The notes under the pieces are model-generated. The model was not told the DNA's origin. It ran no database searches and saw only the letters and a program-made list of their open reading frames with translations. Positions 4,726 to 19,357 of a DNA stretch of 35,079 bases are shown here, piece after piece. The stretch comes from Terriglobia bacterium (lineage in GTDB: Bacteria > Acidobacteriota > Terriglobia > Bryobacterales > Bryobacteraceae). The position numbers and the translations under genes were made by a program. Location: the NCBI GenBank assembly GCA_020073445.1, contig JAIQFE010000043.1, forward strand, positions 1 to 35,079, read 5' to 3'. Numbering within the stretch: position 1 is the stretch's first letter; every line of letters begins with the position of its first letter.

Positions 4726-5310
4726 ATGTATATCCCCATCATCCACACACAGGCGGACATGGGCGACCTGGGCGCGTCGCTGCAGCGGATCAAGACGAAT
4801 CATTTCGGGCGGCGGCGGTTCGTACAGAGTGCCGAACTGGTCGATAGGATGTGGCAGGAGATCGAGCAGACGGTGGAACGCTTACCCATCGTAGGGGGCG
4901 AAACCCGCGTCTATCAGGATGGATTGCCGGTCTGCGCGCATGAGGCGCGTATCATTTCGGAACTGGCCGAGGCAGGCAGCCGGAACTACAAGCTCTTGCT
5001 CCGCTTGGAGAGCCGGGGCGCAATGCTGATGGGAACCGAGAATCCAGACCTTCTGGTTGAGGAATATCAACTGGCCGTCACCGGTCTCAATTCCGGCGGT
5101 GCGGGTGGCGCGAGACAACGCGAACTGCGCGGTGCGGCGCTGCTCGAGGAACGCGACCGGTATATCGCAGCCCGTATCAACAGCACGTTACAACCCGGAG
5201 AGACAGGGGTATTGTTTCTGGGCATGCTGCACTCGGTGCAGCCGTACCTGGACCGGGATATCAACATCGTGTACCCAATTAAGGACATCCAGAAAGTGAA
5301 AGCAATGTGA
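4726..5310 (+). CDS. Conserved protein of unknown function, possible TraB/PrgY-like fold
   Basis: 194 aa. The ATG at 4726 is preferred over an upstream TTG because AGAAGGA (4714-4720) lies five bases before it. The protein is soluble with no signal peptide. Its opening MYIPIIHTQADMG suggests a buried beta strand. The C-terminal part, about residues 140-185, reads EERDRYIAARI...GVLFLGMLHSVQPYL. This resembles the 'RD..IA..I ... G..H' arrangement of TraB/PrgY-type proteins; the resemblance is my reading and unverified. The stop overlaps the start of the next gene by 4 nt (GTGA), so it is translationally coupled to the NtrC-type regulator. That coupling suggests a role in sensing or modulating the regulator. 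It is not a known Gvp family. Confidence 0.7.
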   Translation: MYIPIIHTQADMGDLGASLQRIKTNHFGRRRFVQSAELVDRMWQEIEQTVERLPIVGGETRVYQDGLPVCAHEARIISELAEAGSRNYKLLLRLESRGAMLMGTENPDLLVEEYQLAVTGLNSGGAGGARQRELRGAALLEERDRYIAARINSTLQPGETGVLFLGMLHSVQPYLDRDINIVYPIKDIQKVKAM

Positions 5311-6770
5311 ACGGTGGCAAGGTTCTGATCGTCGATGACGACGCCGGGATTGTCGGGGCTCTCGCCGAGCTCATGCGCCGCCAGGGGCTTACGCCGGTGG
5401 TCGCCAGCGACGGAGATGCGGCGCTCGAGTGTATCCGGCGGGAACATCCGGATGTTCTGCTGGTGGACTTCCAAATGCCTGGGAAAAACGGATTGGAAGT
5501 GATGCAGAAGGCCAAGGCACTGGACGAAGATCTGCCGGTAGTATTGCTCACCGGATTCGCGGAAGTGCGCGGGGCGGTGGAGGCGATCCGGGCGGGTGCA
5601 CACGACTACCTGCCGAAACCGTTCGAGCACCATGAGGTCATGCGAGTCGTGCTGCGGGCGTTGACCGAGCGAGACCTGAAACGGCAGTTGCGAACGCTAT
5701 CGAGCCAGATTGGCCAGCAGGGGCCGTTGCGGGAGATTCTAGGCCCGAGCGAGGCGGCGACCAAGCTCATCAGCGATGTGCAGCGGGTGGCCAAATCCAA
5801 CTTCAGCGTGATCATTTTAGGAGAAACCGGCTCAGGCAAGGAGGTTGTGGCTCGAGCGATCCATCAAACCAGCCTGCGTTCGCGCCAACCGTTCATCCCG
5901 GTGGATTGCGGAGCGATTCCCGAGCCCCTGCTTGAGAGCGAATTGTTCGGGCACGAACGCGGGGCGTTCACGGGCGCAAATCAACAGAAGCCGGGCAGGT
6001 TTGAAACCGCCAGCGGGGGGACGCTCTTTCTGGACGAAGTCAGCAATCTGCCGCTGCCTTCGCAAGCCAAAATGTTGCGCGTTTTGCAGGACAAGGTGTT
6101 GTATCACGTAGGCGGCACTAAGCCGATCCGCGTGGATGCGCGAGTGGTGGCGGCCAGCAACGACGATCTGCAGAGGCTGGTGGACAAGGGTTCGTTCCGG
6201 CGCGATCTGTATTTCCGGTTGAACGAATTTGTAATCCATATTCCGCCGTTGCGCCAGCGCCGGGAAGATATCCCCTACCTGGCCAAGCGCTTCATGGATA
6301 TCACCAACGTCGAGCTGTCCAAGCAGGTGAAAGGGATCGCGCGATGCGCCCTGGAAGCGATGCTGGCTTACGACTGGCCCGGCAATGTGCGGCAGCTCCG
6401 CTCGGTGATTCGGAGAGGCGTTCTAATGGCTGAGGACAGCGTGACCGCGGAGCATCTGGCGCTTCATCAGCCGGCGGCCGACCCACTCGTGACGAACGAG
6501 CAAGGTGAGGATCCCGGCGCGCTTCGGGAGATCGTGAGGCGGCACACGGAGACGATCGAACGCAGGGTCATCGCGCAGACTCTGTGCCGGATGGGCGGCA
6601 ACAAGACTAAGACGGCGCGCCTGCTGCAGGTTGATTTTAAGACCCTACATTCGAAGCTCAAAGAATACGGAATCGAAAGTAACGGAGAGATATCATGCCC
6701 AAGAAAAGCAACAGAACCAGAGACAAAGCTCCGGCCGGCGGGTTCGGACTCGGCCTGGGAGGCATCCTGA
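5307..6770 (+). CDS. NtrC-family sigma-54-dependent response regulator
   Basis: 487 aa, GTG start coupled to the previous gene. Three modules are clear. The receiver domain spans 1-120, with acidic D10-D12, phospho-acceptor D54 in LLVDFQMPGKNG, T82 and K104 in LPKPFE. The AAA+ sigma-54 interaction domain spans about 143-375: Walker A GETGSGKE 172-179, GAFTGA 219-224, Walker B GGTLFLDE 237-244, and WPGNVRQLRS near 358. The Fis-type HTH spans about 415-456, with GGNKTKTARLL. It should activate sigma-54 promoters when phosphorylated, probably by the kinase at 10826. Gas-vesicle loci of Serratia use a comparable regulator (GvrA). Oddity: about 30 residues continue past the HTH and overlap the next gene by 76 nt, as if the original stop were lost. 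Confidence 0.92.
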   Translation: MNGGKVLIVDDDAGIVGALAELMRRQGLTPVVASDGDAALECIRREHPDVLLVDFQMPGKNGLEVMQKAKALDEDLPVVLLTGFAEVRGAVEAIRAGAHDYLPKPFEHHEVMRVVLRALTERDLKRQLRTLSSQIGQQGPLREILGPSEAATKLISDVQRVAKSNFSVIILGETGSGKEVVARAIHQTSLRSRQPFIPVDCGAIPEPLLESELFGHERGAFTGANQQKPGRFETASGGTLFLDEVSNLPLPSQAKMLRVLQDKVLYHVGGTKPIRVDARVVAASNDDLQRLVDKGSFRRDLYFRLNEFVIHIPPLRQRREDIPYLAKRFMDITNVELSKQVKGIARCALEAMLAYDWPGNVRQLRSVIRRGVLMAEDSVTAEHLALHQPAADPLVTNEQGEDPGALREIVRRHTETIERRVIAQTLCRMGGNKTKTARLLQVDFKTLHSKLKEYGIESNGEISCPRKATEPETKLRPAGSDSAWEAS

Positions 6771-7228
6771 AGGGCCTGACCGACCTGGTCGAGAAGCTGG
6801 ACGACCTGTCGGAATCGGGCGGGAATCTCTCCAACACCGGAGAGATCCGAGGCGACAGCCAGCAGGTGAAAGGGATGTACGGGTTCACGGTGAAGATGGG
6901 CCTGGGAGACGACCAGCCGCGCGTCGAGCCTTTTGGCAATCTTCGCCAGGACAGCAAATCGGGCCACACCGTGGTGCAGGAGGTGCGCGAGCCGGTGGTG
7001 GACGTGTTTGAAGAAGAAAAGCACGTGCTGGTGGTGGCGGAGATGCCCGGCATCGGCGTTAAGGACGTGAGGGTCGAAGTCGAAGGTGATCTTTTGACTA
7101 TCTCGGCCGAGCACGGCGATAAGAAATACCGCAAGGAAGTCCTCCTGCCCGAAAGTGTTCCGCAGGAAAAGATTCAGGTCACTTGCAACAACGGCGTGGT
7201 GGAGATTCGATGCCCGAGATCGCATTGA
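6695..7228 (+). CDS. gvpH: Hsp20/alpha-crystallin protein, GvpH-like
   Basis: 177 aa. The ATG has GGAGAGAT just upstream and lies inside the 3' end of the regulator gene. The Gly/Leu-rich N-terminus (GGFGLGLGGILKGL) is followed by a linker containing YGFTVKMGLGDDQPRVEPFGN. The alpha-crystallin domain covers about 98-175: VDVFEEEKHVLVVAEMPGI, then DLLTISAEHGDKKY, ending NNGVVEIRCPR. The canonical IxI tail is missing because the protein stops right after the domain. Hsp20-like GvpH proteins accompany gas-vesicle operons and are thought to hold vesicle proteins soluble. Position between the regulator and the AAA+ ATPase supports a chaperone role here. Generic small heat-shock protein is the alternative. 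Confidence 0.85.
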   Translation: MPKKSNRTRDKAPAGGFGLGLGGILKGLTDLVEKLDDLSESGGNLSNTGEIRGDSQQVKGMYGFTVKMGLGDDQPRVEPFGNLRQDSKSGHTVVQEVREPVVDVFEEEKHVLVVAEMPGIGVKDVRVEVEGDLLTISAEHGDKKYRKEVLLPESVPQEKIQVTCNNGVVEIRCPRSH

Positions 7229-7246
7229 CGTGGGCAGCTGCCTGTC

Positions 7247-9379
7247 ATGACCACTACTGAACCCACGACGCTCAAGCTTCGGGTATCCGAGGCCATCGGC
7301 AAGGATGTGGCGCGCGCGCTCGCCCGGATCGGACCGGAAGATCTCGCCAGGCTGGAGGCAGCCGCGGGCGACCTCTTGGAGGTCGAGGGGAAGCGTAAGA
7401 CCGTATGCAAGGCCATGCCGGCCTATAAAGAGATGCGCGGGCAATCCAGGATTCAACTGGATGGACTGGTGCGCGAAAACACCGGCGCAGGGCTGGACGA
7501 ATTCGTACAGGTACGGAAGATCGGCTGCCGTCCCGCCGAGCGGGTGGTGCTTTCGCCGGTCAACATAACTCCCTCCGACCGGGACCTGAACTACATCGGC
7601 AGCCTGCTGGACGGCCTGCCGGTGCTCGAAGGAAACAGGATTCGCGCCACGTTGTTCGGCAGCCGCTGGGCGGACTTCAAGGTGGAGAGCACCACGCCTA
7701 GAGGGCCCGTCCTGATCAATCCAACTACGCAGCTGGTGATCGGGAAGGAGCAGCCACGCGCGGCAGAGGCAGTCGGCGCCATCTCCTACGAGGACATTGG
7801 GGGCCTGAAGCCGCAGCTCCACCGCATTCGCGAGATGATCGAGCTGCCCCTGAGGTATCCGGAAGTCTTCGAGCGGCTGGGGATCGACGCCCCCAAGGGC
7901 GTACTGCTGCACGGGCCGCCCGGATGCGGCAAGACCCTGATCGCACGGGCGATCGCCCACGAGACGGAGGCTAGCTTTTTCTCGGTCAGCGGGCCGGAGG
8001 TCATCCACAAGTTCTACGGCGAGAGCGAAGCGCATCTGCGCAAGATTTTCGACGAAGCCGGGCGCAAGGGACCGAGCATCATATTCCTGGACGAGATCGA
8101 CGCGATTGCTCCCAAGCGGGAGAACGCGGTGGGGGACGTCGAGAAGCGAGTCGTCGCACAACTGCTTGCGCTGATGGACGGCCTGGCGCAGCGCAAGCAG
8201 CTCATCGTAATTGCCGCGACCAATCTGCCCAATGCAATCGATCCGGCTTTGCGCCGGCCGGGCAGGTTCGATCGCGAAATTACGATTCCGATCCCGGATC
8301 GCAACGGACGCGAGGAGATTCTCAACATCCACAGCCGGGGGATGCCTCTCGCCGGGGATGTAAACATGGCGCATCTGGCGGAGATCACCCATGGCTTCGT
8401 GGGCGCCGATCTCGAAGCTCTGTGCCGGGAAGCCGCCATGCTCCGGCTGCGGCACATTCTGCCCGAGGTCGATTTCGCGCTGGTGCAGATCCCTTACGAG
8501 CAATTGGCAAAGCTCGAAGTCGGGATGGACGATTTCCTGGACGCCCTGCACGACGTCGAGCCTTCGGCGACGCGCGAGGTATTCGTCGAAGTGCCCAACG
8601 TCCGCTGGGAGGACGTGGGCGGGCTGGCGTCGACAAAGCAGCGCCTGCTCGAAGCCGTGGAATGGCCCCTTCGATATGGACCGGTGTTCGCCCAGGCGGG
8701 GATTCGTCCGCCCAAGGGCATCCTGCTGGTGGGTCCGCCCGGCTGCGGCAAGACGCTGCTGGCCAAGGCGATCGCGACGGAGAGCCGCGTGAATTTCATC
8801 GCGGTCAAAGGTCCGGCGCTGTTGTCCAAGTATGTCGGTGACTCCGAGAAAGGCGTGCGCGACGTCTTCAGAAAAGCGAAGCAGGCGGCGCCCTGCATCA
8901 TCTTCTTCGATGAGCTCGAATCGCTGGTGCCGGCGCGCGGCGCGGGGTCCTCGGATTCGCATGTCTCGGAACGGGTGTTGAGCCAGTTCCTAGCCGAGAT
9001 GGACGGCATCGAGGAGCTGAAGGGCGTACTGGTCCTGGGAGCGACCAATCGCGTCGACCTGATCGATGCGGCGCTGCTGCGGCCCGGGCGGTTCGACGAC
9101 ATCGTGGAGATCACCGCGCCGGATGAGGAGAGCCGGCGTCAGATCTTCGAAGTGCATCTGCGGAAAAAGCCTTTGGGTCCAGGAATCAGCACGGCGGATC
9201 TGGCGGCGCGCTCGGAAGGCATCAGCGGCGCCGAAGTCGAATGGGTATGCACCAAGGCGGCTTTGCACGCAGTACGCCGCGCGGTCGAAAGCGGGCGGGA
9301 CAAACCCGTCGAGGAAATCAAGGTGCGAGTTGAATCCGGCGACATCGAGACCGCACTGTTGGAGGTCGGGAAGCGCTAA
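7247..9379 (+). CDS. Cdc48/VAT-type double AAA+ ATPase
   Basis: 710 aa, ATG at 7247. The N-terminal substrate domain is of Cdc48_N type (about 10-165, LKLRVSEAIGKDVARALARI, then TLFGSRWADFKV). D1 AAA begins near 178 (SYEDIGGLKPQ): Walker A GPPGCGKT 223-230, Walker B IIFLDE 278-283, and arginine fingers in RRPGRFD near 337. D2 begins near 453 (RWEDVGGLAST): Walker A GPPGCGKT 496-503, Walker B IIFFDE 551-556, fingers in LRPGRFD. Both sites look catalytically intact. The family unfolds or extracts proteins from complexes in the cytosol. It is 18 bp downstream of the Hsp20 gene and directly followed by gvpF/L, so remodelling or disassembly of vesicle proteins is likely but inferred. Such ATPases occur in some bacterial gvp loci but are not part of the minimal set. 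Confidence 0.92.
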   Translation: MTTTEPTTLKLRVSEAIGKDVARALARIGPEDLARLEAAAGDLLEVEGKRKTVCKAMPAYKEMRGQSRIQLDGLVRENTGAGLDEFVQVRKIGCRPAERVVLSPVNITPSDRDLNYIGSLLDGLPVLEGNRIRATLFGSRWADFKVESTTPRGPVLINPTTQLVIGKEQPRAAEAVGAISYEDIGGLKPQLHRIREMIELPLRYPEVFERLGIDAPKGVLLHGPPGCGKTLIARAIAHETEASFFSVSGPEVIHKFYGESEAHLRKIFDEAGRKGPSIIFLDEIDAIAPKRENAVGDVEKRVVAQLLALMDGLAQRKQLIVIAATNLPNAIDPALRRPGRFDREITIPIPDRNGREEILNIHSRGMPLAGDVNMAHLAEITHGFVGADLEALCREAAMLRLRHILPEVDFALVQIPYEQLAKLEVGMDDFLDALHDVEPSATREVFVEVPNVRWEDVGGLASTKQRLLEAVEWPLRYGPVFAQAGIRPPKGILLVGPPGCGKTLLAKAIATESRVNFIAVKGPALLSKYVGDSEKGVRDVFRKAKQAAPCIIFFDELESLVPARGAGSSDSHVSERVLSQFLAEMDGIEELKGVLVLGATNRVDLIDAALLRPGRFDDIVEITAPDEESRRQIFEVHLRKKPLGPGISTADLAARSEGISGAEVEWVCTKAALHAVRRAVESGRDKPVEEIKVRVESGDIETALLEVGKR

Positions 9380-10183
9380 GTGGCGGAGCAGGACATAACA
9401 GAGCGGAATATATCTGAGCGGGCCTACTATCTCTATTGCCTGACGCCGTCCGGCCGTGCGCTCGAGCTCAATGAAGCAGGCGTCTTTGTGTGGGCCTGCG
9501 ATGGTATTTGCGCCGTGCTCAGCGAGTCGAATCGTGAGGAATTCTGCGGCGAGGGTTCGGAAGCACGGCTCGAGGACTTGGCCTGGCTGGCTCCCCGCGT
9601 TTTCCGGCATGAGGCCGTAGTGGAACGCATCATGGGCCAGTCGCCGGTGCTGCCGGCGCGCTTCGCGACCTTGTTTTCCTCGCTCGAAAGCCTGCGAAGT
9701 TTTGTCCTCGAATACCATGACGCAATAACCGGTTTCTTCGCGCAGGTGGGCGACAAGCGGGAATGGGCCGTGAAGGGCCTGCTGGATCGTCCTCTCGTCG
9801 GCCAGAGCGCGCAGCCTCCGAGGCCGCAGCTTGCGGATACTCCCGGCAAGAACTATCTCCAGAAGAAGCGCATGGAAGCGGAAGCCGGGGAGCTTACGAA
9901 CCAGTGGGTGAGGGCGGTGTGTCAAAAGGCCGCGGGCGAACTGGAGCAACAGGCGTCGGCGTTCCGGGAGCGGCAGTTGTGGAACGGAAGCGATTCCAAT
10001 GAGCCGGCTGAGGTGATCCTGAACTGGGCGTTTCTGGTGCCCGGAGACGGGGAGGCGGATTTTCGCCGGCTGGTGACTGAGCTCGATGAACGGCATCGCG
10101 CCGGCGGACTGAGTTTTGCCTTGTCGGGACCCTGGCCACCCTACAGCTTCGCCCCGGCTCTGGGCGGGGAAAAGACGGCATGA
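9380..10183 (+). CDS. gvpL: Gas vesicle protein GvpF/GvpL, copy 1
   Basis: 267 aa from a GTG that immediately follows the stop of the AAA+ gene. Typical GvpF/L features: an opening beta strand AYYLYCLTPSG, the segment LPARFATLFSSLESLRSF (counterpart of the family's PLRFGTVF), the K/EWAVKGLL strand, an alpha-helical region with YLQKKRMEAEAGE, and the family's closing phrase SGPWPPYSFAP. GvpF/L proteins are structural or assembly factors that bind GvpA during nucleation. The assignment to F or L cannot be decided without a tree. The stop overlaps the next start (ATGA), so it is coupled to copy 2. Confidence 0.9.
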   Translation: MAEQDITERNISERAYYLYCLTPSGRALELNEAGVFVWACDGICAVLSESNREEFCGEGSEARLEDLAWLAPRVFRHEAVVERIMGQSPVLPARFATLFSSLESLRSFVLEYHDAITGFFAQVGDKREWAVKGLLDRPLVGQSAQPPRPQLADTPGKNYLQKKRMEAEAGELTNQWVRAVCQKAAGELEQQASAFRERQLWNGSDSNEPAEVILNWAFLVPGDGEADFRRLVTELDERHRAGGLSFALSGPWPPYSFAPALGGEKTA

Positions 10184-10839
10184 AGCGTTTGCTGCATTGT
10201 GTGTTTCGACACGACGGGACCGATAACCCGGAGGTAGTTCACAATCATCGCTTGGCGGTGGCCACGTCGCCTTGGAGAGACAAGGAATCGCCGGACGTGG
10301 GCCGCGTGCTGGCCTACGAAAAAGTGATTGCGATGTTGCATGCGACTCGCACGGTGGTTCCCTTGCGTTTCGGCTGCGTCGTGGAGGACCAAGCCCAGAT
10401 CCTCCGGCTGCTCGACGAGCGCGAGGCGGAGTTCGAACAGCTTCTGGGCCGGCTCGAAGGCCTGGTCGAAATGGGAATGCGAGCGTGGTGGGAAGCTCCT
10501 CCGGAAGAGCCGTTGCCCGCGGATCTCACGGGGGCTCTCACGGGTCCCGGAGCGCGCTACCTGTCTGCGGCCCGAGGGCGCCATGCCGGGCTGACGCCGG
10601 TCGAGGAGTGGTGGGCCGACCGGATCTGCGGCTTACTAGATGGACTCTATGTACAGCAACGAAGAGAAGCCCGCCAGGCATCGGAAGGCCGCCTGCTTTC
10701 GCTACACTTCCTCGTACCGAAAGCCTCGGCTAAGCACTTTCGGGACCGAGTCCGGTGGATCGCGTTTCCCGGAGACATGAAATCCTTGGTCAGCGGCCCG
10801 TGGCCGCCCTACAGCTTTGTCGACCATGCCGGACAGTAA
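10180..10839 (+). CDS. Gas vesicle protein GvpF/GvpL, shortened copy 2
   Basis: 219 aa, start overlapping the previous stop by 4 nt. It keeps VVPLRFGCVVEDQAQILRLL (the PLRFG motif), VEMGMRAWWE (counterpart of the KVEWGVKVY strand) and the ending SGPWPPYSF, so it is a genuine GvpF/L member. It is about 50 residues shorter than copies 1 and 3: the N-terminal domain is compressed and the central helical segment is different. It may act as a heteromeric partner of copy 1. Its end overlaps the histidine kinase start. Confidence 0.85.
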   Translation: MKRLLHCVFRHDGTDNPEVVHNHRLAVATSPWRDKESPDVGRVLAYEKVIAMLHATRTVVPLRFGCVVEDQAQILRLLDEREAEFEQLLGRLEGLVEMGMRAWWEAPPEEPLPADLTGALTGPGARYLSAARGRHAGLTPVEEWWADRICGLLDGLYVQQRREARQASEGRLLSLHFLVPKASAKHFRDRVRWIAFPGDMKSLVSGPWPPYSFVDHAGQ

Positions 10840-12370
10840 ATCCAGTGCCGTTGTGGACGCGGAAGGTCACTTTCGGCATCTGTTCGATGCCAGCCCCTAT
10901 GCGATGTACCGGATGCTGGTCGACAGCATTCCCTCGTCGGTGGTGCTGATCGACGAAGACTTGCAGGTGGTTCTGGCGAACCGTAATTTTCTGGAGAAAG
11001 CGCGGCGGCTAGAGTCGGAAACACTGGGCCGGCAGCTCATTGACGTGTTCCCTCGAGTAATCGTTGACGAGCTGCAACTGCAGAAACAGGTCCAGTTAGC
11101 CTTCGCCAGCCAGCACGCGGTGGAGGGTCAGCGCCTGACGTACCGCGCCCCCGGCGTGCCTCTGCGCACCTACTATTACAGCGTCGTCCCCATGGTTCGG
11201 GGAGTGCAAGCAAGACTCGTAATGCTGCTGCTGGACGATGTGACCGAACAACTGCGGCTGGCCGAGGAGGTTCGGCGAGTAGAGCGCCACTTGGCGAGTG
11301 TGGTGGAGAGCGCCAATGAGATCATGCTCTCGACCGATACCAAGGGCCGGATCCTGACCTGGAACAGGGCGGCCGAACGGCTTTCGGGGTACCGGTTAGA
11401 CGAGATCCAGGGGCATCTTCTCTCCGACTACTGTTCTGCGGATTGCCCGGAATCGATCCAAGCCTTCTTCGCGGTCGAGGCATCGCAAAGCGGTTGCGGC
11501 GCGGCGGAGTGCGATCTTATTACCAAGAGCGGCGCACGGATTCCGGTTTCCTGGGAGTTTTCGCCCATGAAGGACGACCTGGATCGCATCGTGGGGATCG
11601 TGGCGGTGGGCCGCGACCTGACGGAACGGCGCAAGTTCGAGCAGCAGTTGTTGCAGTCCCAGAAGCTCGCCGCGCTGGGCGTCATGGCCGGAGGCATTGC
11701 CCACGAAGTCCGCACGCCCCTGGCCATCTCCTCATCGGCCGCCCAATTCCTGATGGAGAAAGATATCACCGCGGATTTCCGCCAGGAGTGTGCCGAGAAG
11801 GTACACATCGGAATCCAGCGGGCGTCGGTCATCATTGAGAATTTGCTGCGTTTCGCCCATCCTTCGACCAAGCTCGACATGACCGAGATCGATCTGTTGT
11901 CGGTACTTCGCGATGCGATCACGCTGGTGGCCAACCAGGCCCGGATTCAAAAGGTCGAAATCGTCTGCCGGTTCCCCGAAGACCGGGTGGTGATGCGAGG
12001 AATCGCGAGCCTTCTGGAGCACGCTTTCCTCAACCTCTTTCTCAACGCTCTGAGCGCTATGCCGGAAGGGGGCAGCCTGACCATTTCGGTGGAGGCTACT
12101 TCCGCTGCCGTCCGCGTGCGCGTCTCAGACACAGGCTGCGGCATTGCTAGTTCCGATATCGGAAAGATCTTCGATCCGTTCTATACGCGGGCGCCAGTAG
12201 GGAAAGGGACGGGCCTCGGCCTGTCAATCTGTTACTCCGTGATTCAGGAGCACGGAGGCTCCATTGAGGTCGAAAGCGTCCCGGAAAGAGGAAGCACCTT
12301 CACCGTCACACTACGGGACCAAGGAAGAAGTGGTGCCAAACCAGCAGCCCATTTGCCTGATCGTGGATGA
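10826..12370 (+). CDS. PAS-domain sensor histidine kinase
   Basis: 514 aa from the ATG at 10826, which overlaps the gvpF/L stop by 14 nt. There is no transmembrane segment, so it is a cytosolic sensor. PAS 1 spans about 32-140 (IPSSVVLIDEDLQVVLANRNFL). PAS 2 spans about 155-267 (NEIMLSTDTKGRILTWNRAAERLSGY, ending VAVGRDLTERR). The HisKA H-box AGGIAHEVRTPLA contains phospho-acceptor H293. The HATPase domain has the N-box NLFLNALSAM, G1 DTGCGI 435-440, F-box FDPFYT and G2 GTGLGLSI. This is the NtrB-like architecture that partners NtrC-type regulators, so the activator at 5307 is its likely target. The receiver gene just downstream could be a second target or a phosphate sink. Confidence 0.93.
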   Translation: MPDSKSSAVVDAEGHFRHLFDASPYAMYRMLVDSIPSSVVLIDEDLQVVLANRNFLEKARRLESETLGRQLIDVFPRVIVDELQLQKQVQLAFASQHAVEGQRLTYRAPGVPLRTYYYSVVPMVRGVQARLVMLLLDDVTEQLRLAEEVRRVERHLASVVESANEIMLSTDTKGRILTWNRAAERLSGYRLDEIQGHLLSDYCSADCPESIQAFFAVEASQSGCGAAECDLITKSGARIPVSWEFSPMKDDLDRIVGIVAVGRDLTERRKFEQQLLQSQKLAALGVMAGGIAHEVRTPLAISSSAAQFLMEKDITADFRQECAEKVHIGIQRASVIIENLLRFAHPSTKLDMTEIDLLSVLRDAITLVANQARIQKVEIVCRFPEDRVVMRGIASLLEHAFLNLFLNALSAMPEGGSLTISVEATSAAVRVRVSDTGCGIASSDIGKIFDPFYTRAPVGKGTGLGLSICYSVIQEHGGSIEVESVPERGSTFTVTLRDQGRSGAKPAAHLPDRG

Positions 12371-12750: not shown

Positions 12751-12764
12751 TGGAATCAGTTCCA
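12751..12764. promoter_or_regulatory. Palindrome TGGAATCAGTTCCA, candidate enhancer (UAS) for gvpA
   Basis: TGGAA and TTCCA arms are separated by TCAG. The centre lies about 106 bp upstream of the -12 element of the sigma-54 candidate at 12850, a normal distance for NtrC-type enhancer sites. The half-site GTTCCA/TGGAAC is the word enriched upstream of the regulator gene. Binding by the activator at 5307 is inferred. Confidence 0.5.
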
Positions 12765-12849: not shown

Positions 12850-12865
12850 TGGCCATCCGGATGCA
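12850..12865 (+). promoter_or_regulatory. Sigma-54 (-24/-12) promoter upstream of gvpA
   Basis: TGGCCA-N5-ATGCA matches the consensus TGGCAC-N5-TTGCA, with the invariant GG at 12851-12852 and GC at 12863-12864 at the correct spacing. Transcription would start near 12876, about 50 nt before the gvpA ATG. The locus encodes its own sigma-54 activator, which supports the call. The surrounding stretch 12738-12924 contains no gene. Confidence 0.65.
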
Positions 12866-12924
12866 TAGATAAAGCCGGATCAAGCTTAATACGAGGTCCC
12901 ATTTTTAGGAAAGGAGGTGGCAGT

Positions 12925-13143
12925 ATGGCAAAAGTGCAGAAAGCCACGGACTCATCGAGCTTAGCGGAAGTTGTTGACCGCATTCTCGACAAAGGTATCG
13001 TTGTCGATGCCTGGGTAAAGGTGTCGTTAGTGGGCATCGAGCTGTTGTCGGTGGAAGCCCGAGTGGTAATCGCTTCGGTGGAGACTTATCTCAAGTACGC
13101 CGAGGCCATCGGGTTGACCGCCAGCGCCGCAGCGCCCGCGTAA
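12925..13143 (+). CDS. gvpA: Major gas vesicle wall protein GvpA
   Basis: 72 aa. The start is fixed by the strong Shine-Dalgarno AAAGGAGG six bases upstream; an earlier in-frame ATG at 12844 lies upstream of the predicted transcript. The GvpA fold is complete: [20 protein letters not shown] (helix 1 and first strand), [20 protein letters not shown] (second strand, reverse turn and helix 2) and [14 protein letters not shown]. GvpA polymerises as ribs into the gas-permeable, water-excluding shell. It is the first gene after the sigma-54 promoter and is followed by two GC-rich hairpins, consistent with higher expression than the downstream genes. Confidence 0.97.
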
Positions 13144-13156
13144 AACCACGCCGGTG

Positions 13157-13195: not shown

Positions 13196-13251
13196 TCGCG
13201 GCGCGGTTGTGTCGACGGAAGAAGAGGACGGGAAGGGAGAGATCAAAAGTT

Positions 13252-13536
13252 ATGTTGACCGAGGAAATGACGCATCTGTGCGGAGAAATCGTCGCCATGC
13301 GTACACGCCGGGGAGAACTGCTGAAAACCCTGGAGAACGACAGCAAAGAGCGAAGAGAGGCTGTATCGGACTTGTGCCGACAATTCCACAAAGCCCGCGT
13401 GGGGATGGCCAGGAGGATGCATCACGATCGCGTGTCTTTCCTGCGCAACCTCAGGCATGGGGTCAATGTGCAACGGCGGGAGCTGAGATCGGATCTGGCC
13501 GGTGTTCGAAAAGTCTGGGCCGGCAAAGCAGCCTGA
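13252..13536 (+). CDS. Small helical (coiled-coil) protein, paralogue 1, in gvp operon
   Basis: 94 aa from the ATG at 13252, with a GGGAGAGA purine tract upstream. The sequence is almost wholly alpha-helical, basic and heptad-like: EEMTHLCGEIVAMRTRRGEL, later RREAVSDLCRQFHKAR. It ends RRELRSDLAGVRKVWAG. I do not recognise a named family. Residues near the N-terminus (MTHLCGEIVAMR) and C-terminus (RSDLAGVRKVWAG) align with the next protein (MTRLRDEILELR; ANDLAGARRAWCG), so the two genes are tandem duplicates, the second shortened in the middle. Placement right behind gvpA suggests a vesicle-associated role (scaffold or GvpC-like outer binding). No GvpC repeats are visible, so this is inference. 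Confidence 0.75.
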   Translation: MLTEEMTHLCGEIVAMRTRRGELLKTLENDSKERREAVSDLCRQFHKARVGMARRMHHDRVSFLRNLRHGVNVQRRELRSDLAGVRKVWAGKAA

Positions 13537-13569
13537 CAGACACGAGACGCCACCGAACGGAGAAACAGA

Positions 13570-13905
13570 ATGGGAGCGCTGACGGAGAGCATGACCCGCT
13601 TGCGGGACGAGATTCTTGAGCTGCGGCACAACCGCCAAACGTTCCGGGCGGACCTGGAGCGATCGACCAAAGCGGCGCAGTTTCGGGTTTCCGCACTGCG
13701 GAGGGCTATCGCCAACGATCTTGCGGGAGCACGTCGCGCATGGTGCGGCCTTGCTTCCGGCATTAGCCCGGCTACCAGGAGAGCACACGACTTAGTGGTG
13801 CCACCACCCTTGGAACACCATCGCGAAACCCGACTTCCGCCACCGCTGGTCGAGCCGGCTCCCTCTCACGGCAAGTCGCCGTTCAAGAAACACAGGAAAC
13901 ACTAA
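13570..13905 (+). CDS. Small helical protein, paralogue 2, with proline-rich basic tail
   Basis: 111 aa; GGAGAAACAG lies just before the ATG. The N-terminal half (1-60) is helical and related to the preceding protein: SMTRLRDEILELRHNRQ, and NDLAGARRAWCG. The C-terminal half is unrelated, proline-rich and basic (VVPPPLEHHRETRLPPP, ending KSPFKKHRKH), and probably disordered. The stop codon shares one base with the gvpN start (TAATG), so expression is coupled to gvpN. Function unknown; a linker between the vesicle and another partner is a guess from the domain plan. Confidence 0.72.
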   Translation: MGALTESMTRLRDEILELRHNRQTFRADLERSTKAAQFRVSALRRAIANDLAGARRAWCGLASGISPATRRAHDLVVPPPLEHHRETRLPPPLVEPAPSHGKSPFKKHRKH

Positions 13906-15002
13906 TGGCAAATATCGAAGCTATCGAACGGGTGGCGACTACGGTTCGGGTCCAGCCCGACGGCGACCACGTCGAGCCCGAAGCGAGCCCGGAGTTCGTA
14001 GCCACGAAGCACGTGCAGCACTTGACGGAGCGGGCCCTGGCATACCTCGATGTCGGCTACGCCGTGCATTTCGCCGGTCCGGCCGGCACCGGCAAGACGA
14101 CGCTGGCTTTCCACGTCGCGGCGCGGCGCAACCGGCCGGTAACCTTGATCCACGGCGATGACGAGTTCAGCAGCGCGGACTTGATTGGAAGGGATACGGG
14201 GTATCGCAAGTCGAAACTCATCGACAACTATATTCACTCGGTGGTGAAGACCGAAGAAAACATGAACACCGTATGGATGGACAACCGGCTCACCATGGCG
14301 TGCCAGAACGGTTACACCTTGATCTATGACGAGTTCAATCGCTCGCGCCCGGAGGCCAACAATGCCCTGCTCAGCGTGCTGGAGGAGAAAATCCTGAATC
14401 TCCCGAGCTTGCGGCGGTCGGGAGAAGGGTACATCGAAGTGCATCCGGAGTTCCGTGCGATTTTCACGTCCAACCCGGAGGAGTACGCCGGCGTCCACAA
14501 AACGCAGGACGCCTTGATGGACCGGTTGATCACGATCGGCATCGGCAACTTCGATCGCGAGACCGAGATAAGGGTGGCCGTAGCCAAATCGGGCCTCGCA
14601 CGAGAAGACGCGGAAGTCCTGGTGGATGTTGTCCGCGAACTGCGCCGAACCGGGGTGAGCAATCACCGGCCGACCATCCGCGCCTCGATCGCCATGGCTA
14701 AGATCTTGCAGAGCCGTGGAGCCCATGCCCACATGGACGACCCGGTGTTCCAGTGGGTATGCCGCGATATCCTGCACACCGACACGGCCAAAGTCACGTG
14801 CGAGGGCCAGTCGCTGATGCCGCAAAAGGTGCAAGAAGCGGTGGCCAAGGTCTGCGGGAACTTGAGAAAACGAACGAGAGCCCCGCAGCCGTCCGCCAAG
14901 GCACAGCAAGAGCCGGCGAGCGTATCGAACGGGAAAGTATCGAACGAGAAAGTGACGAACGGAAAGGATGGGGCAGCATGGCAGTTTCCAGCCGAGGCCT
15001 GA
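13905..15002 (+). CDS. gvpN: Gas vesicle ATPase GvpN
   Basis: 365 aa. A MoxR-like AAA+ ATPase: Walker A AGPAGTGKTT ending at 66, the family phrase LIHGDDEFSSADLIG, Walker B YTLIYDEFNRSRPEANNALL, sensor region FTSNPEEYAGVHKTQDALMDRL, and the lid helices RPTIRASIAMAKIL. These are the GvpN hallmarks. GvpN hydrolyses ATP during vesicle growth. The C-terminal tail after about residue 320 is low-complexity, with three near-identical units (VSNGK, VSNEK, VTNGK) encoded by a 15-bp tandem repeat at about 14922-14966. The tail overlaps the next gene by 25 nt. Confidence 0.96.
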   Translation: MANIEAIERVATTVRVQPDGDHVEPEASPEFVATKHVQHLTERALAYLDVGYAVHFAGPAGTGKTTLAFHVAARRNRPVTLIHGDDEFSSADLIGRDTGYRKSKLIDNYIHSVVKTEENMNTVWMDNRLTMACQNGYTLIYDEFNRSRPEANNALLSVLEEKILNLPSLRRSGEGYIEVHPEFRAIFTSNPEEYAGVHKTQDALMDRLITIGIGNFDRETEIRVAVAKSGLAREDAEVLVDVVRELRRTGVSNHRPTIRASIAMAKILQSRGAHAHMDDPVFQWVCRDILHTDTAKVTCEGQSLMPQKVQEAVAKVCGNLRKRTRAPQPSAKAQQEPASVSNGKVSNEKVTNGKDGAAWQFPAEA

Positions 15003-15289
15003 AGAACATTCGAACCCTCTCGGGCAGAGTGGACCCAAGCGCCCTTTCTTACCGCGGATACATGCGCATCACTTGCCTCGAAATGGAAAAGGTCAGGCGC
15101 AACGCGGAACGGAGGAGCGCGGCGCAGCGGATCGAGCAGATCGATGCGCGCGTGCGGGAAATCGACAAGGAAAAGAAGGAGCTGCTCGAGGCGATCCAGG
15201 CAGGTCCGAGAGTATCCGCGCGGCTGCCCGGAATCGACGTGAAGCCCTCCTCTTATAAACGAGCGGCTGGGTTTCGAATCCGGTATTGA
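14978..15289 (+). CDS. Small coiled-coil protein between gvpN and gvpF/L
   Basis: 103 aa. The ATG at 14978 has GGAAAGGATGGGG in front; longer in-frame starts would run deep into gvpN. The N-terminal motif SSRGLKNIRTLSGRVDPSAL is followed by MRITCLEMEKVRRN and a charged coiled coil at about 40-80 (RSAAQRIEQIDARVREIDKE). The tail is basic. I do not recognise a family. It shows no clear similarity to the two helical proteins after gvpA. The operon position, overlapping gvpN and 24 bp from the next gvpF/L, implies a vesicle-assembly accessory. Confidence 0.72.
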   Translation: MAVSSRGLKNIRTLSGRVDPSALSYRGYMRITCLEMEKVRRNAERRSAAQRIEQIDARVREIDKEKKELLEAIQAGPRVSARLPGIDVKPSSYKRAAGFRIRY

Positions 15290-15313
15290 GTCGCCAGGTA
15301 TGGGAGTCGTCCA

Positions 15314-16117
15314 ATGAGTAACCGCGCCAGCGCAACAGCCTTAAAGGAACCGGCGGCGGATCAGGCCACGGCCAGCATTCAGGCCAGAAAGTACCTGTTT
15401 GCGATCGTGTACGCGGCGGACGCGCAGCCCTGCACCTGTCCCGGCATGGACGAGAAAGAAGTGTCGACGATTACCGAGGGACGCCTGGCTGCAGTGGTCA
15501 GCGGCGTCACGGGTCCGAAAATCCGGCCCGAACGAAGGCACCTGGCGAAACACCAGGAAGTTCTGAAACAGCTTCTGGCTCAAACGACGCCGTTGCCGAT
15601 GACGTTCGGGATTCTGGCCGATGATACCGAGGCGATCCACAAGATCCTTCGGCGCAACCAGCGCGTATTCCTGGAGCAACTGCAGCGCGTCGCGGGAAAA
15701 GTGGAAATGGGGCTCCGCGTCCATTGGGACGTTCCGAACATCTTCGAATATTTCGTCAACACCAATTCCGAGCTGAGATCCGCGCGGGACCGCCTTTTGG
15801 GCGGCAACCGCCAACCCACGCAGGAAGAGAAGATCGAGCTTGGCCGGATGTTTGACCGGTTGCTCGGTGAGGAGCGCGAAAACCATACCGAACAGGTGCG
15901 GCAAATCCTCTCGCGAGCCTGTTCCGCGGTCAAGACCAACAAATGCCGCAACGAGCATGAGGTGATGAATCTCTCCTGTCTGGTGGGGCGTGAGGCGCAA
16001 GAGGATTTTGGCAACGCCGTCTTCCAGGCGGCGCAGAGGTTCGATAACAACTTCGCCTTCGACTACAACGGTCCGTGGGCGCCTCACAACTTTGTCGAAG
16101 TGACTCTTTCGGTGTAG
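15314..16117 (+). CDS. gvpF: Gas vesicle protein GvpF/GvpL, copy 3
   Basis: 267 aa. An N-terminal strand KYLFAIVYAA, the segment EGRLAAVVSGVTG, TTPLPMTFGILADDTEAIHK (PLRFG counterpart), KVEMGLRVHWD, NLSCLVGREAQEDF and the closing FDYNGPWAPHNFVEV define a complete two-domain GvpF/L. It differs strongly from copies 1 and 2 (ending GPWAPHNF instead of GPWPPYSF) and stands in the classical place before gvpG, so it is probably the canonical GvpF. The N-terminal 20-residue extension and the CTCPGM Cys pair are not usual. F versus L is a guess. Confidence 0.92.
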   Translation: MSNRASATALKEPAADQATASIQARKYLFAIVYAADAQPCTCPGMDEKEVSTITEGRLAAVVSGVTGPKIRPERRHLAKHQEVLKQLLAQTTPLPMTFGILADDTEAIHKILRRNQRVFLEQLQRVAGKVEMGLRVHWDVPNIFEYFVNTNSELRSARDRLLGGNRQPTQEEKIELGRMFDRLLGEERENHTEQVRQILSRACSAVKTNKCRNEHEVMNLSCLVGREAQEDFGNAVFQAAQRFDNNFAFDYNGPWAPHNFVEVTLSV

Positions 16118-16129
16118 CAAGGAGCGGTT

Positions 16130-16435
16130 ATGCTGATCATCGACGATCTTCTCTGCGCGCCCGCCAAGGGCATTTTGTGGATCTTCAAGGAAATTCACAA
16201 CGCGGCGCAGGAGGAACTGGCCAATGAGCCCGAATCAATTTCCCAGCAACTGAGGAATCTGTACATGCAGCTCGAAACCAACGCGATCTCCGAGCAGCAG
16301 TTCGATGCGCAAGAGAAAGTGTTGCTCGACCGGCTGGAGGAAATCGAGGCCGCCTCCGAACGTAACACAGAGGAAGGAGAATCCGGCAGCGAGGGGATAC
16401 TCGAAGAGGTGCCGGTGCATGGGAAGGGCCGATAG
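16130..16435 (+). CDS. gvpG: Gas vesicle protein GvpG
   Basis: 101 aa, with AAGGAG before the ATG. The start MLIIDDLLCAPAKGILWIFK is the GvpG signature (a hydrophobic 'P.KG..WI...' helix), followed by an amphipathic coiled coil: LRNLYMQLETNAISEQQFDA and EKVLLDRLEEIEA. The acidic C-terminus after about 80 is variable. GvpG is a small assembly factor that works with GvpF/L. It lies 12 bp behind gvpF and overlaps the next gene by 17 nt. Confidence 0.93.
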   Translation: MLIIDDLLCAPAKGILWIFKEIHNAAQEELANEPESISQQLRNLYMQLETNAISEQQFDAQEKVLLDRLEEIEAASERNTEEGESGSEGILEEVPVHGKGR

Positions 16436-18395
16436 TGCGTCCCTGAGTGCGATCCGGCCGTCTTTCTTGGACAACAGCAGCTTGCAGTTGTTGCTGTTTG
16501 GAGGCAAAGGGGGGGTTGGTAAGACAACCTGCGCCACGGCAGCGGCCCTGCGGCTTGCAACAGAGAGGCCAGCAGAGTCCTTTTTGCTGGTCTCGGCCGA
16601 CCCAGCCCATTCGCTCCAGGACAGTCTGGCCGGCATGATCCCTCCGGCCAACCTGACCGTCCGGGAGTTGAATGCGCAGGAGTACCTGGCTGCGTTTCGT
16701 ACGGAGAACGGGCAGAAGCTGCACGAAATCGCGGCCGCCGGCACGTTCCTCGATGACGAGGACATCGGCCGCTTCCTCAACCTCTCGCTGCCGGGCCTGG
16801 ATGAACTCATGGCGTTCCTGCAGATCGTCGATTGGGTGGAAAACCGCCGTTACGCCTGCATTATCGTGGACACGGCGCCCGGCGGCCACACGCTGCGGCT
16901 CCTGGCCATGCCCACACTCATCCGGAACTGGCTGTCCATGCTGGACGTCCTTCTCGACAAGCGCCGGTATATGCGAAAAGTTTTCAGCCGGTCTGAGGAC
17001 CCCGATTCGCTGGACCTCTTTCTCAGCAAATGGTGGGATTCGCTCGGGCGCATGGACAAATTGTTACGCGATCCCGCGCGCTGCCAGTTTGTTCCCGTTG
17101 CCATCGCCGAACCGCTCAGCGTGCGGGAAACAGTGGCGCTGCGGAAAGAACTGCGGCGCTGGCGAATAGCCGTGACCGACCTGGTCATCAACCAGCTTCA
17201 TCAGGCGGGCGCCTGCGCCACCTGCTCGGAGGCCAATGCGCGGGAGCAACAACAAATCCAGCCGTTGTGTTCGACGAACGGCCGGGTGGCGATATGGGCA
17301 ATCGACCTGTTCGCCGACGAAGTTCGCGGAGCGGAGCTGCTGTCCCGCTTTTGGGACCATGCGCGCCCGATCGAGGGAGCCCCGGCCATCGTTCCCCAGG
17401 TGCGGGAAACCCGCCACGCGCTGGTTGAGACGCCGGCCGAGCTGCCGTCGCGTGAAATCCGGCTGATTCTGTTCACCGGTAAAGGAGGGGTGGGCAAGAC
17501 CACGCTCTCCTGCGCCACCGCCGTGCGCCTCGCCCGCGCGTATCCGGAGAAGCGAATCCTGCTGTTTTCAACCGATCCGACCCACTCTTTGTCCGCCTGC
17601 CTGAATCGGGAGGCCGGCCCTCAGCCGGTCCACGTAGTGGCCGGCCTGAACGCCATGGAAATCGACGCGCCCGCTGAGTTTGAGGCTCTGAAAGCCCAGT
17701 ATGCCGATGACATCGAGGAGTTCTTCGAAACTGTCGCTGCCGGTTTTGACCTGACCTTCGACCGGGTGGTTCTGGAGAAGATGATGGACCTGGCGCCGCC
17801 GGGGCTGGATGAAGTGATGGCGCTGACCCGCATCCTGGATCTTCTGGTCCACGACCGCTTTGACTTGTTCGTGTTGGATTCGGCCGCTACGGGCCATTTC
17901 ATAAGGCTGATGGAGCTGCCCGCGCTGGTCGACGAGTGGCTCAAGACATTCTTCCGGGTTCTCCTGAAGTACCAGCACATACTGCAGCTACCGCGCTTCT
18001 CCGACCGGCTGGTGGAACTATCCAAGAGCCTGAAGCAGTTCCGCAAATTGCTGACCGATCCCGCGAAAGCCGTTCTGAACGTGGTGAGCATTCCGACCCA
18101 GATGGCTTGGGAGGAGACCAAGGACCTCCTGGCAGCCTGCGAGCGCCTCGGCATTGTCGTTTCAGCCATGTTCCTGAACCTCATGACGCCGCCGGGAGAT
18201 TGCGACCTGTGCGCCGGCCTGCGGCGGCGGGAACTGGCAGCAGTCAAACTCTTCCGGCAAGCCTTCCCGAAACAGCGGCTCAGCCTGGTCTACCGGCAGG
18301 GACAGCCGGTGGGACTGGAGCGGCTGGAGGAATTGGCGCAGAGTCTGTACCAAACGACGAGTTCCGGGTTCGTAAACTCTTATGCCCCGGCATGA
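16419..18395 (+). CDS. Tandem Get3/ArsA-type ATPase (two fused ATPase domains)
   Basis: 658 aa. The ATG at 16419 follows GAAGAGG and overlaps gvpG. There are two homologous halves. Half 1: deviant Walker A GKGGVGKTT 29-37, SADPAHSLQD (switch), DTAPGGHTLRLL 151-162. Half 2: GKGGVGKTT 354-362, STDPTHSLSA, DSAATGHFIRLMELP 487-501. Each half also carries one CxxC, C266/C269 (ACATC) and C595/C598 (DCDLC), at the position of the zinc-binding CxxC of Get3. ArsA pumps share the duplicated layout, but no arsB or arsR is nearby. Get3 proteins shield hydrophobic segments for membrane delivery, so a chaperone role for GvpA-like proteins is an attractive inference. It is not a core Gvp family. Confidence 0.9.
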   Translation: MGRADSASLSAIRPSFLDNSSLQLLLFGGKGGVGKTTCATAAALRLATERPAESFLLVSADPAHSLQDSLAGMIPPANLTVRELNAQEYLAAFRTENGQKLHEIAAAGTFLDDEDIGRFLNLSLPGLDELMAFLQIVDWVENRRYACIIVDTAPGGHTLRLLAMPTLIRNWLSMLDVLLDKRRYMRKVFSRSEDPDSLDLFLSKWWDSLGRMDKLLRDPARCQFVPVAIAEPLSVRETVALRKELRRWRIAVTDLVINQLHQAGACATCSEANAREQQQIQPLCSTNGRVAIWAIDLFADEVRGAELLSRFWDHARPIEGAPAIVPQVRETRHALVETPAELPSREIRLILFTGKGGVGKTTLSCATAVRLARAYPEKRILLFSTDPTHSLSACLNREAGPQPVHVVAGLNAMEIDAPAEFEALKAQYADDIEEFFETVAAGFDLTFDRVVLEKMMDLAPPGLDEVMALTRILDLLVHDRFDLFVLDSAATGHFIRLMELPALVDEWLKTFFRVLLKYQHILQLPRFSDRLVELSKSLKQFRKLLTDPAKAVLNVVSIPTQMAWEETKDLLAACERLGIVVSAMFLNLMTPPGDCDLCAGLRRRELAAVKLFRQAFPKQRLSLVYRQGQPVGLERLEELAQSLYQTTSSGFVNSYAPA

Positions 18396-18660
18396 TCCGG
18401 AGGCGAGCGGCGCGGCCAGGCTCGAGCTTGCCGGGCTCAACGATCTTCAGCGCGTCTCTCTCTGCGAAACGCTCGATCGCGTATTAACCAAGGGCGCCGT
18501 GGTGGCTGGGGAAGTGGTCATCTCGGTGGCCGATGTTGAGCTGGTCTATCTGGGTCTCCATCTCGTGCTCTCTTCCGTAGAGACTGCACGGGGCGGCGGA
18601 CCCGGCGGTGTAGGTTTGAGTATTGCGATCGGAAAGGAACATGCCGATGCGGGGGGATGA
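18382..18660 (+). CDS. GvpA-superfamily minor protein, GvpM/GvpS-like
   Basis: 92 aa; the start overlaps the ATPase end by 14 nt. The core SLCETLDRVLTKGAVVAGEV then VISVADVELVYLGLHLVLSSVET has the GvpA superfamily pattern (DRVLxKGxVxxGxVxIxxADVxLxxxxL). The 'VADVELVYLGL' version is typical of GvpM/GvpS, not of GvpA or GvpJ. The N-terminal 25 residues and a Gly-rich tail are extra. Such paralogues are minor components that aid nucleation. The M/S/J label needs a phylogeny. Confidence 0.85.
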   Translation: MPRHDPEASGAARLELAGLNDLQRVSLCETLDRVLTKGAVVAGEVVISVADVELVYLGLHLVLSSVETARGGGPGGVGLSIAIGKEHADAGG

Positions 18661-19024
18661 AATGGCGCAAGTCGAGTCTGATTCGATTTCAGACTTCGCC
18701 CGAGTGATGCAGCCAGGCACCGCAGTCGCGGCGGGACAAGCGCACAGCGAGATGCCGTCCCGGCTCCGGCTGAACCTTGATCCCGAAACGGTAAAGAACG
18801 GCCTCGGCCAACTGGTGCTGACGCTGGTGAAACTGCTGCATGAACTCCTGGAGCGGCAGGCGATTCGCCGCATCGATGCTGGTTCCTTGAACGACGAACA
18901 GATCGAGCGGCTGGGCCTCACCTTGATGCGTCAGGCGGAAGAGATCGAACGGTTGCGAAAGGAATTCGGCCTCGGCGAGGAAGATTTGAATCTGGACCTG
19001 GGCCCACTCGGAAAGCTTTTGTAG
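18641..19024 (+). CDS. gvpK: Gas vesicle protein GvpK
   Basis: 127 aa from the ATG at 18641. ATG 18647 and ATG 18662 are both plausible, the last with its own GGGGGA. The body RLNLDPETVKNGLGQLVLTL with VKLLHELLERQAIRRIDAGS is the GvpK signature, then LNDEQIERLGLTLMRQAEEI and LGLGEEDLNLDLGPLGKLL-like ending. GvpK is a small helical assembly factor required for vesicle formation. It overlaps the preceding GvpA-like gene and lies 15 bp before gvpJ. Confidence 0.93.
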   Translation: MPMRGDEMAQVESDSISDFARVMQPGTAVAAGQAHSEMPSRLRLNLDPETVKNGLGQLVLTLVKLLHELLERQAIRRIDAGSLNDEQIERLGLTLMRQAEEIERLRKEFGLGEEDLNLDLGPLGKLL

Positions 19025-19039
19025 AGCAGAACATTTCTT

Positions 19040-19357
19040 ATGCCGCAACCTACCGTATCGCACGCCGTTCAGAGTTCGACGCTCTCCGATGTTCTCGAGC
19101 GGGTACTCGATAAGGGCATCGTCATCGCCGGGGATATCAAAGTGAAGCTGGTCGATATCGAGCTGTTGTCGGTCCAAATACGGCTGGTGATCTGCTCGGT
19201 GGACAAAGCGCGGGAAATGGGAATGGACTGGTGGGTGAACAATCCCGTTTTCTCGAGCCAGCCGCATCCTGAGCACTTGGAAGCTGCGGTAACCCGCATG
19301 GAAGATAGACTGGCCAGATTGGAAACGGCGCTTACTCCGGCTGGCAGCGGGGATTAG
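19040..19357 (+). CDS. gvpJ: Gas vesicle minor wall protein GvpJ
   Basis: 105 aa. The GvpA-type core SSTLSDVLERVLDKGIVIAG with VKLVDIELLSVQIRLVICSV is followed by the GvpJ-specific phrase DKAREMGMDWWVNNP and a C-terminal coiled coil (AAVTRMEDRLARLETAL). That extension separates it from GvpA. It is the last gene of the gas-vesicle locus; beyond it the gene density and direction change. Confidence 0.92.
   Translation: MPQPTVSHAVQSSTLSDVLERVLDKGIVIAGDIKVKLVDIELLSVQIRLVICSVDKAREMGMDWWVNNPVFSSQPHPEHLEAAVTRMEDRLARLETALTPAGSGD

Follow-up and report, generated by a model that had tools for sequence, protein, structure and literature searches.

Gas-vesicle gene clusters of a two-operon plan are known from Serratia sp. 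ATCC 39006, in which the genes are ordered gvpA1CNVF1GWA2KXA3Y / gvrAgvpHZF2F3gvrBgvrC (PMC9501494). According to PMC4982088, the plan occurs in beta-, gamma- and deltaproteobacteria, the order of the two units is inverted in Psychromonas ingrahamii and Desulfomonile tiedjei, a sigma-54 site and control by GvrA before gvpA1 were known for Serratia by 2016, and GvpN and GvpV were shown in this organism to drive growth past bicones. Two-domain ArsA proteins inside gvp operons, including that of Acidobacteria Ellin345, were published in 2010 (PMC2963123). As reported in PMC10344784, the cluster of Desulfocicer (Desulfobacterium) vacuolatum DSM 3385 yields gas vesicles in E. coli; the ultrasound signal in E. 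coli is weakened or abolished when gvpC, H, W, Y or Z is deleted, yet vesicles still form in the native Serratia host when gvpC, W, X, Y, H or Z is missing. The locus considered here occupies positions 4726-19357 of a 35,079-nucleotide stretch of DNA from a Terriglobia bacterium (GCA_020073445.1, contig JAIQFE010000043.1), hereafter the window. Very probably it is a gas-vesicle locus with a complete gene set on a two-operon plan already known, that of Serratia ATCC 39006 and Desulfocicer, possibly acquired by transfer within the Acidobacteriota. The cluster is of a kind already described and widely distributed, in a host genus in which it is rare.

Gene content and layout

The locus comprises 19 genes, all on the plus strand, in two tight units. 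The first unit consists of a TraB-like gene, gvrA, hsp20, cdc48, two gvpF/L genes, a histidine kinase gene and a receiver gene; the second of gvpA, two GvpC-like genes, gvpN, a gvpV-like gene, a gvpF/L gene, gvpG, a double ArsA/Get3 gene, gvpS, gvpK and gvpJ (Table 1). Families were assigned with Pfam and NCBIfam, which bore out the gas-vesicle locus and the gene list of an earlier note on this DNA; its acidobacterial host was also correct. All 19 frames as drawn are open with one terminal stop each, some of the start codons being our choice. The three GvpA-domain genes, three gvpF/L genes, gvpN, gvpG, gvpK and gvpH required of a Serratia-type cluster are all present, and the regulatory-operon order gvrA-gvpH-Z-F2-F3-gvrB-gvrC is matched. 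A search of the draft genome (E<=0.001) recovered gvpA, gvpS and gvpJ of the window as its only GvpA-domain genes. Spacing between neighbours ranges from a 76-nucleotide overlap to 33 nucleotides, except for 187 nucleotides before and 108 nucleotides after gvpA. These two gaps suggest two transcription units, likely 4726-12737 and 12925-19357, so that of the one or two operons proposed earlier two is the probable number.

Both large ATPases fall within their families: the Cdc48-type protein passes the TIGR01243 cut-off, and the ArsA/Get3 protein reaches 337 bits with TIGR00345 (cut-off 135). The latter has a CxxC motif about 240 residues past each of its two P-loops, and both motifs occur in 43 of 53 homologous frames. 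In Get3 the CxxC holds zinc at the dimer interface, and gas-vesicle shell proteins are amphipathic. Given the two P-loops, the CxxC after each and the role of this motif in Get3, it is plausible that the double ATPase is a fused, self-closing Get3-like carrier of GvpA-family subunits.

The three small helical proteins that the earlier note had listed as unrecognised are indeed encoded, but two of them are putatively GvpC-like and one is GvpV-like. The alignment of the first two contains one gap, exactly 33 residues long, and cyanobacterial GvpC consists of 33-residue repeats. When the self-similarity of their family was scored over lags 18-49 in 102 untrimmed frames, lag 33 was best (-0.313; shuffled mean -0.668, standard deviation 0.017), with lags 18 (-0.342) and 40 (-0.385) near it. 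The gap, the periodicity and the gvpA-C-N position are the reasons for the label, and both products are putatively GvpC-like. No Pfam or NCBIfam match was found for them at E<=1, and the sequence match to a Nostoc protein annotated as GvpC (20 bits, bias 15.7) is weak and inflated by biased composition. The third protein is named GvpV-like by position; a single family occupies this slot in all 80 loci compared below, and the family model matches, at 49 to 81 bits, the gene in the GvpV slot on plasmids of Methylocella, Methylosinus and Spartinivicinus.

Table 1. Features of the gas-vesicle locus, with positions in the window
Feature	Position	Strand	Evidence
TraB-like accessory gene, unnamed family	4726..5310	+	below Pfam TraB cut-off; GvpN co-occurrence; AlphaFold2 pLDDT 91.6; GvpY slot by position
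gvrA-like sigma-54 activator with receiver domain	5307..6770	+	GAFTGA present
Hsp20/GvpH	6695..7228	+	PF00011 and PF05455 above cut-off
Cdc48-type double AAA+ ATPase	7247..9379	+	TIGR01243 868.5 bits (cut-off 802.65); GvpZ slot by position
gvpF/L paralogue, F2 slot	9380..10183	+	PF06386
gvpF/L paralogue, F3 slot	10180..10839	+	PF06386
PAS-PAS histidine kinase (PAS/PAS/HisKA/HATPase)	10817..12370	+	GvrB slot by position
Single-domain receiver	12333..12737	+	PF00072 E 1.6e-21 (on 12336-12737); GvrC slot by position; GTG start chosen by us
Palindrome GGAATCAGTTCC, candidate GvrA enhancer	12752..12763	.	9/10 match
Sigma-54 -24/-12-like element TGGCCATCCGGATGCA, weak	12850..12865	+	8/11, GG and GC kept; upstream of gvpA
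gvpA, main shell protein	12925..13143	+	PF00741 E 2.2e-16 (frame scanned from 12844)
GvpC-like helical protein 1	13252..13536	+	gvpA-C-N position; 33-residue indel, periodicity
GvpC-like helical protein 2	13570..13905	+	aligns to protein 1 with one 33-residue gap
gvpN, MoxR-like AAA+ ATPase	13905..15002	+	Pfam AAA_5; tblastn match to annotated gvpN genes
gvpV-like helical protein	14978..15289	+	GvpV slot by position; family after gvpN in 80/80 loci
gvpF/L paralogue, F1 slot	15314..16117	+	PF06386 E 4.7e-64
gvpG	16130..16435	+	PF05120
Double ArsA/Get3 ATPase	16419..18395	+	PF02374, TIGR00345 (frame scanned from 16305); two P-loops, two CxxC
gvpS, GvpA2 slot	18382..18660	+	PF00741
gvpK	18623..19024	+	PF05121 E 8.2e-34
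gvpJ, GvpA3 slot	19040..19357	+	PF00741

Conservation, distribution and origin of the locus

Titled genomes were scanned with a GvpN alignment, and the best 80 of 562 confirmed loci were analysed. Since they were picked by the closeness of their GvpN to that of the window, the counts describe this branch and not all gas-vesicle clusters; the 80 loci are not 80 genomes (the two loci of each of the pairs L063/L069, L075/L094 and L093/L110 come from one genome), contig ends truncate many of them, and neighbours were counted only where the downstream one was mapped. The TraB-like gene is followed by gvrA in 27 of 28 cases, gvrA by the Hsp20 gene in 35 of 36, the latter by the Cdc48 gene in 38 of 39, Cdc48 by F2 in 37 of 39 and F2 by F3 in 41 of 45. 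F3 precedes the kinase gene in 23 of 43 loci and gvpA directly in 19 of 43; further steps are kinase to receiver (29/33), receiver to gvpA (31/33), gvpN to the V-like gene (80/80), gvpG to ArsA (51/63), ArsA to gvpS (41/48) and gvpK to gvpJ (50/51). The comparison with relatives that the earlier note had proposed thus shows the non-Gvp genes mostly kept beside gvp genes in many phyla, and the neighbour counts rule out an accidental link: the chaperone and signalling genes belong to the locus, as had been supposed. The Serratia-type plan, including its ATPases and its two-component control, recurs widely as a module in the Acidobacteriota and other phyla, and the chaperone-like genes are therefore part of the system.

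The same counts bear on the idea that the Acidobacteriota have a gas-vesicle subtype distinct from others, with chaperones and signalling of its own. The GvpN of the window does group with records of the Acidobacteriaceae, Bryobacteraceae and Solibacteraceae (8 rows, Shimodaira-Hasegawa-like approximate likelihood ratio test 96, quick tree), and several Acidobacteriota loci lack the kinase and receiver genes between F3 and gvpA. However, an equal or near-equal gene set and order is found in records of Thermodesulfobacteriota, Myxococcota, Planctomycetota, Verrucomicrobiota, Rokubacteria and others, D. vacuolatum included, and in the same tree acidobacterial GvpN sequences are scattered over several places (6 changes). 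The cross-phylum gene order largely refutes an acidobacterial subtype, which we rejected as highly improbable. The term "acidobacterial-type" used earlier is accordingly not supported, and neither is "non-canonical" for the gene set: the plan has been published for Proteobacteria (PMC4982088; PMC9501494) and ArsA in gvp operons was reported in 2010 (PMC2963123). The locus does represent a subtype, but one whose plan is already known.

Two variants of the plan were encountered among the loci. A record titled Candidatus Kuenenia stuttgartiensis, an anammox organism (L134), contains a nearly full two-unit cluster including the TraB-like, gvrA, Hsp20, Cdc48, kinase and receiver genes, with F3, the GvpC-like gene and the ArsA gene not mapped. 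A pair of gvpA and a GvpC-like gene stands twice in tandem before gvpN in L071, L072, L074-L076, L078, L094, L114, L120, L122 and L133, records mostly titled Deltaproteobacteria or Syntrophaceae (L120, Acidobacteria).

The window is the entire contig C14 of a 6.58-Mb assembly of 102 contigs that is 95.8% complete. The pyrroloquinoline quinone dehydrogenase encoded upstream of the cluster shares 97% protein identity with that of a genome of the same genus (G020), which supports the membership of the contig in this genome. Similarity to G020 ends at window position 2951, and an insertion point marking an empty site was not found in the stretches compared. GvpK is present in 1 of 41 genomes (that of the window and 40 relatives); the 22 further genomes from this genus, not all of them complete, have none. 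Within the genus, one genome of the 23 sampled carries the locus. Gain of the cluster by transfer within the Acidobacteriota is plausible, and repeated loss is a possible alternative account of the patchy distribution.

This rarity would also suit a silent or decaying island in which the genes are present and vesicles absent, as suspected in Streptomyces coelicolor, and so would the tyrosine recombinase gene downstream of the locus, which may be a remnant (catalytic part at 20048-20791, a weak integrase N-terminal domain at 19705-20037 in a different frame). The open state of every frame speaks against decay, and the locus has an equivalent, judged by family or position, of every gene whose mutation is listed as making Serratia vesicle-defective (Fig. 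S3 legend, PMC4982088); S. coelicolor, by contrast, is described in that paper as lacking gvpN, gvpV, gvpF2 and gvrA-C. A silent island therefore appears unlikely, and the cluster, judged by its genes, is probably functional. Shells that serve the host for something other than buoyancy, such as surface-to-volume ratio, gas storage or stress, are a slightly less likely alternative still: related records from the Acidobacteriota have bog, palsa and groundwater in their titles, and flotation is plausible in such wet places.

In a 396-genome sample of the phylum of the window, 13 of the 23 genomes with GvpK lack GvpN at E<=1e-60 (L028-L062 set; G210, with a short contig, is among them), and several GvpK genomes have another order, F1, gvpG, ArsA, F2, gvpS, gvpK, gvpJ, gvpA, which may represent a second type of cluster in the Acidobacteriota. 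Elsewhere in the window, a multicopper oxidase is encoded at 26325-27812, and contig C63 of this genome has a second copy of it that is 89% identical; among the 22 other genomes of the genus, a match at E<=1e-60 occurs in G014 only. A 1328-residue protein is encoded on the minus strand at 30533-34519; its FlgD-Ig/DUF4082 matches near the C-terminus are weak and below cut-off.

The TraB-like gene

The first gene of the locus was called TraB-like in the earlier note. The gene stands but the name is weak: with Pfam TraB/PrgY/GumN (PF01963) the protein scores 14.4 bits (E 0.034-0.038), below the curated cut-off of 26.8, which rejects membership in that family. Eleven of 27 homologues match PF01963 at E<=0.1, the best at 0.002. 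An AlphaFold2 model of the protein is confident (mean predicted local distance difference test, pLDDT, 91.6; predicted template modelling score 0.85), and a Foldseek search of the PDB with it gave no match at E<=0.001 (best 0.47); a PDB profile search yielded one weak, unrelated match (E 0.14).

A search model built from seven sequences related the distribution of this gene to that of gas-vesicle genes. It occurs in 11 of the 396 genomes of the phylum sample, all 11 among the 23 with GvpK; ten are exactly the ten with GvpN at E<=1e-60, and in the eleventh, G210, the cluster contig measures 9.6 kb. Among 247 genomes from the phylum to which D. vacuolatum belongs, the TraB-like gene is present in 15, GvpN in 18 and both in 14; G669 has the TraB-like gene without GvpN, and G484, G573, G634 and G640 have GvpN without the TraB-like gene. 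Over both phyla (643 genomes), GvpN is present in 24 of 26 carriers. The hypergeometric p values of 5e-19 and 2e-18 are uncorrected for shared ancestry, and the genomes of the window and of D. vacuolatum are in the samples by choice. In 16 genomes picked mostly because the gene was missing or cut off at the locus, it was found in 11 and was absent in five, including two Thiosymbion. Four plasmid records carry it, annotated as a hypothetical protein, and all four also carry GvpN, about 25 kb away on the Octadecabacter plasmid. In the other 21 of 25 GvpN plasmid records, mostly of Halobacterium and also of other haloarchaea, Nostoc and Spartinivicinus, it was not found at E<=1e-3; the gene is therefore a marker of a single branch of the GvpN clusters and not of them all. 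It is a conserved accessory usually found with this cluster type.

In L087 and L096 the order is gvpJ, TraB-like gene, gvrA, which is the position of gvpY in Serratia and suggests that the TraB-like protein is GvpY. If this is true, a named yet unexplained Serratia gene gains a family. No TraB-like gas-vesicle gene appears in the titles and abstract openings of the papers listed by the literature search, a scope outside which the 2011 Serratia paper lies. On balance we favour, with some reserve, the view that the gene represents an unnamed family which is specific, in different phyla, to gas-vesicle clusters built on the Serratia/Desulfocicer plan, has a fold unmatched in the PDB by Foldseek, and acts with GvpN and the Cdc48, Hsp20 and Get3-like chaperones in shell growth or quality control. 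This family is the freshest point of the locus and the part worth following.

Regulation, assembly and comparison with known systems

A -24/-12 element of sigma-54 type (at least 9 of 11 positions, GG and GC fixed, at most 250 nucleotides before the first gvpA) was found in 36 of 58 loci, as opposed to 44 of 1160 random pieces of the same loci. A palindrome, GGAATnnATTCC, matches at 9 or more of 10 positions in 21 of 58 upstream regions of gvpA, 171-246 nucleotides before the start codon, versus 15 of 1160 random pieces; the motif had itself been selected from word counts in these regions, and the loci are related to one another, which keeps the test from being independent. GAFTGA is present in GvrA of the window and in 25 of 36 homologues, and rpoN was found in the host genome. 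We propose the palindrome as a candidate GvrA site. Together with the cluster-bound unnamed family it offers a concrete target in clusters used as ultrasound reporters.

The data show the content and order of the genes, their conservation and the phyletic link; protein roles, expression and buoyancy in this host we infer. GvrA, the kinase in the GvrB slot and the receiver in the GvrC slot would sense a cue and act on a sigma-54 promoter before gvpA, the first unit also supplying Hsp20, Cdc48 and two GvpF/L proteins. GvpA would build the shell, GvpJ, GvpS and GvpK would seed it, the GvpC-like proteins would stiffen it, and GvpN and the V-like protein would convert bicones to cylinders. The fused Get3-like ATPase, Hsp20 and GvpF/L most likely hold the subunits of the GvpA family, which are hydrophobic, in solution and hand them on, Cdc48 may remodel or clear failed assemblies, and the TraB-like protein would be an accessory in clusters of this plan.

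Several points weigh against a complete, functional locus of the Serratia/Desulfocicer plan working in this manner. The contig belongs to a draft assembly. The sigma-54 element of the window, TGGCCATCCGGATGCA, is weak (8/11, a value reached by 158 of 1160 controls), and the pattern with up to two mismatches has 14 matches in the window where 16.4 are expected, which is no excess. In G113, G161 and G265 of the phylum sample the order is TraB-like, gvrA, Hsp20, Cdc48, F2, F3, gvpA, GvpC-like, gvpN, V-like, F1, gvpG, ArsA, gvpS, gvpK, gvpJ, equal to that of the window except that no kinase/receiver pair separates F3 from gvpA; in G265, ArsA is also missing from the mapped stretch. The Serratia slots W, Y and Z match ArsA, the TraB-like protein and Cdc48 of the window by position only; W as ArsA is doubtful, and GvpW is called GvpL/F-like in the literature, which counts against it. 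If these equivalences hold, the three proteins would be helpers and not essentials, because the native Serratia deletions leave vesicles (PMC10344784).

Among known systems, the gvp operons of Acidobacteria Ellin345 and cyanobacteria share with the window a double ArsA beside gvp genes, but the acidobacterial cluster as given in PMC2963123 has fewer named genes (two L/F, J, K, M). Plasmids of the methanotrophs Methylosinus sp. C49 and Methylocella tundrae (L144, L145) carry an NtrC-type regulator, kinase, receiver, gvpA, GvpC slot, gvpN, V-like, GvpF/L, gvpG, Hsp20/GvpH and TraB-like genes as the window does; unlike in the window, these clusters are plasmid-borne, the TraB-like gene follows the Hsp20 gene, and no ArsA is annotated in the stretch, the gene table of which is incomplete. 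Serratia sp. ATCC 39006 has the same gvpA-C-N-V-F1-G... and gvrA-gvpH-Z-F2-F3-gvrB-gvrC units (PMC9501494), whereas in the window their order is inverted, as in P. ingrahamii and D. tiedjei, and nothing lies between gvpK and gvpJ, where Serratia has gvpX between gvpK and gvpA3. D. vacuolatum DSM 3385 (L125) agrees with the window in 17 genes from gvrA to gvpJ, in equal order and on the same strand, and in a TraB-like gene directly upstream of gvrA (G434:C50); it differs in having one mapped GvpC-like gene instead of two. Its GvpN is 68% identical to that of the window over the matched part, and its taxonomy identifier, 1121400, is that of the strain whose vesicle-forming cluster is described in PMC10344784.

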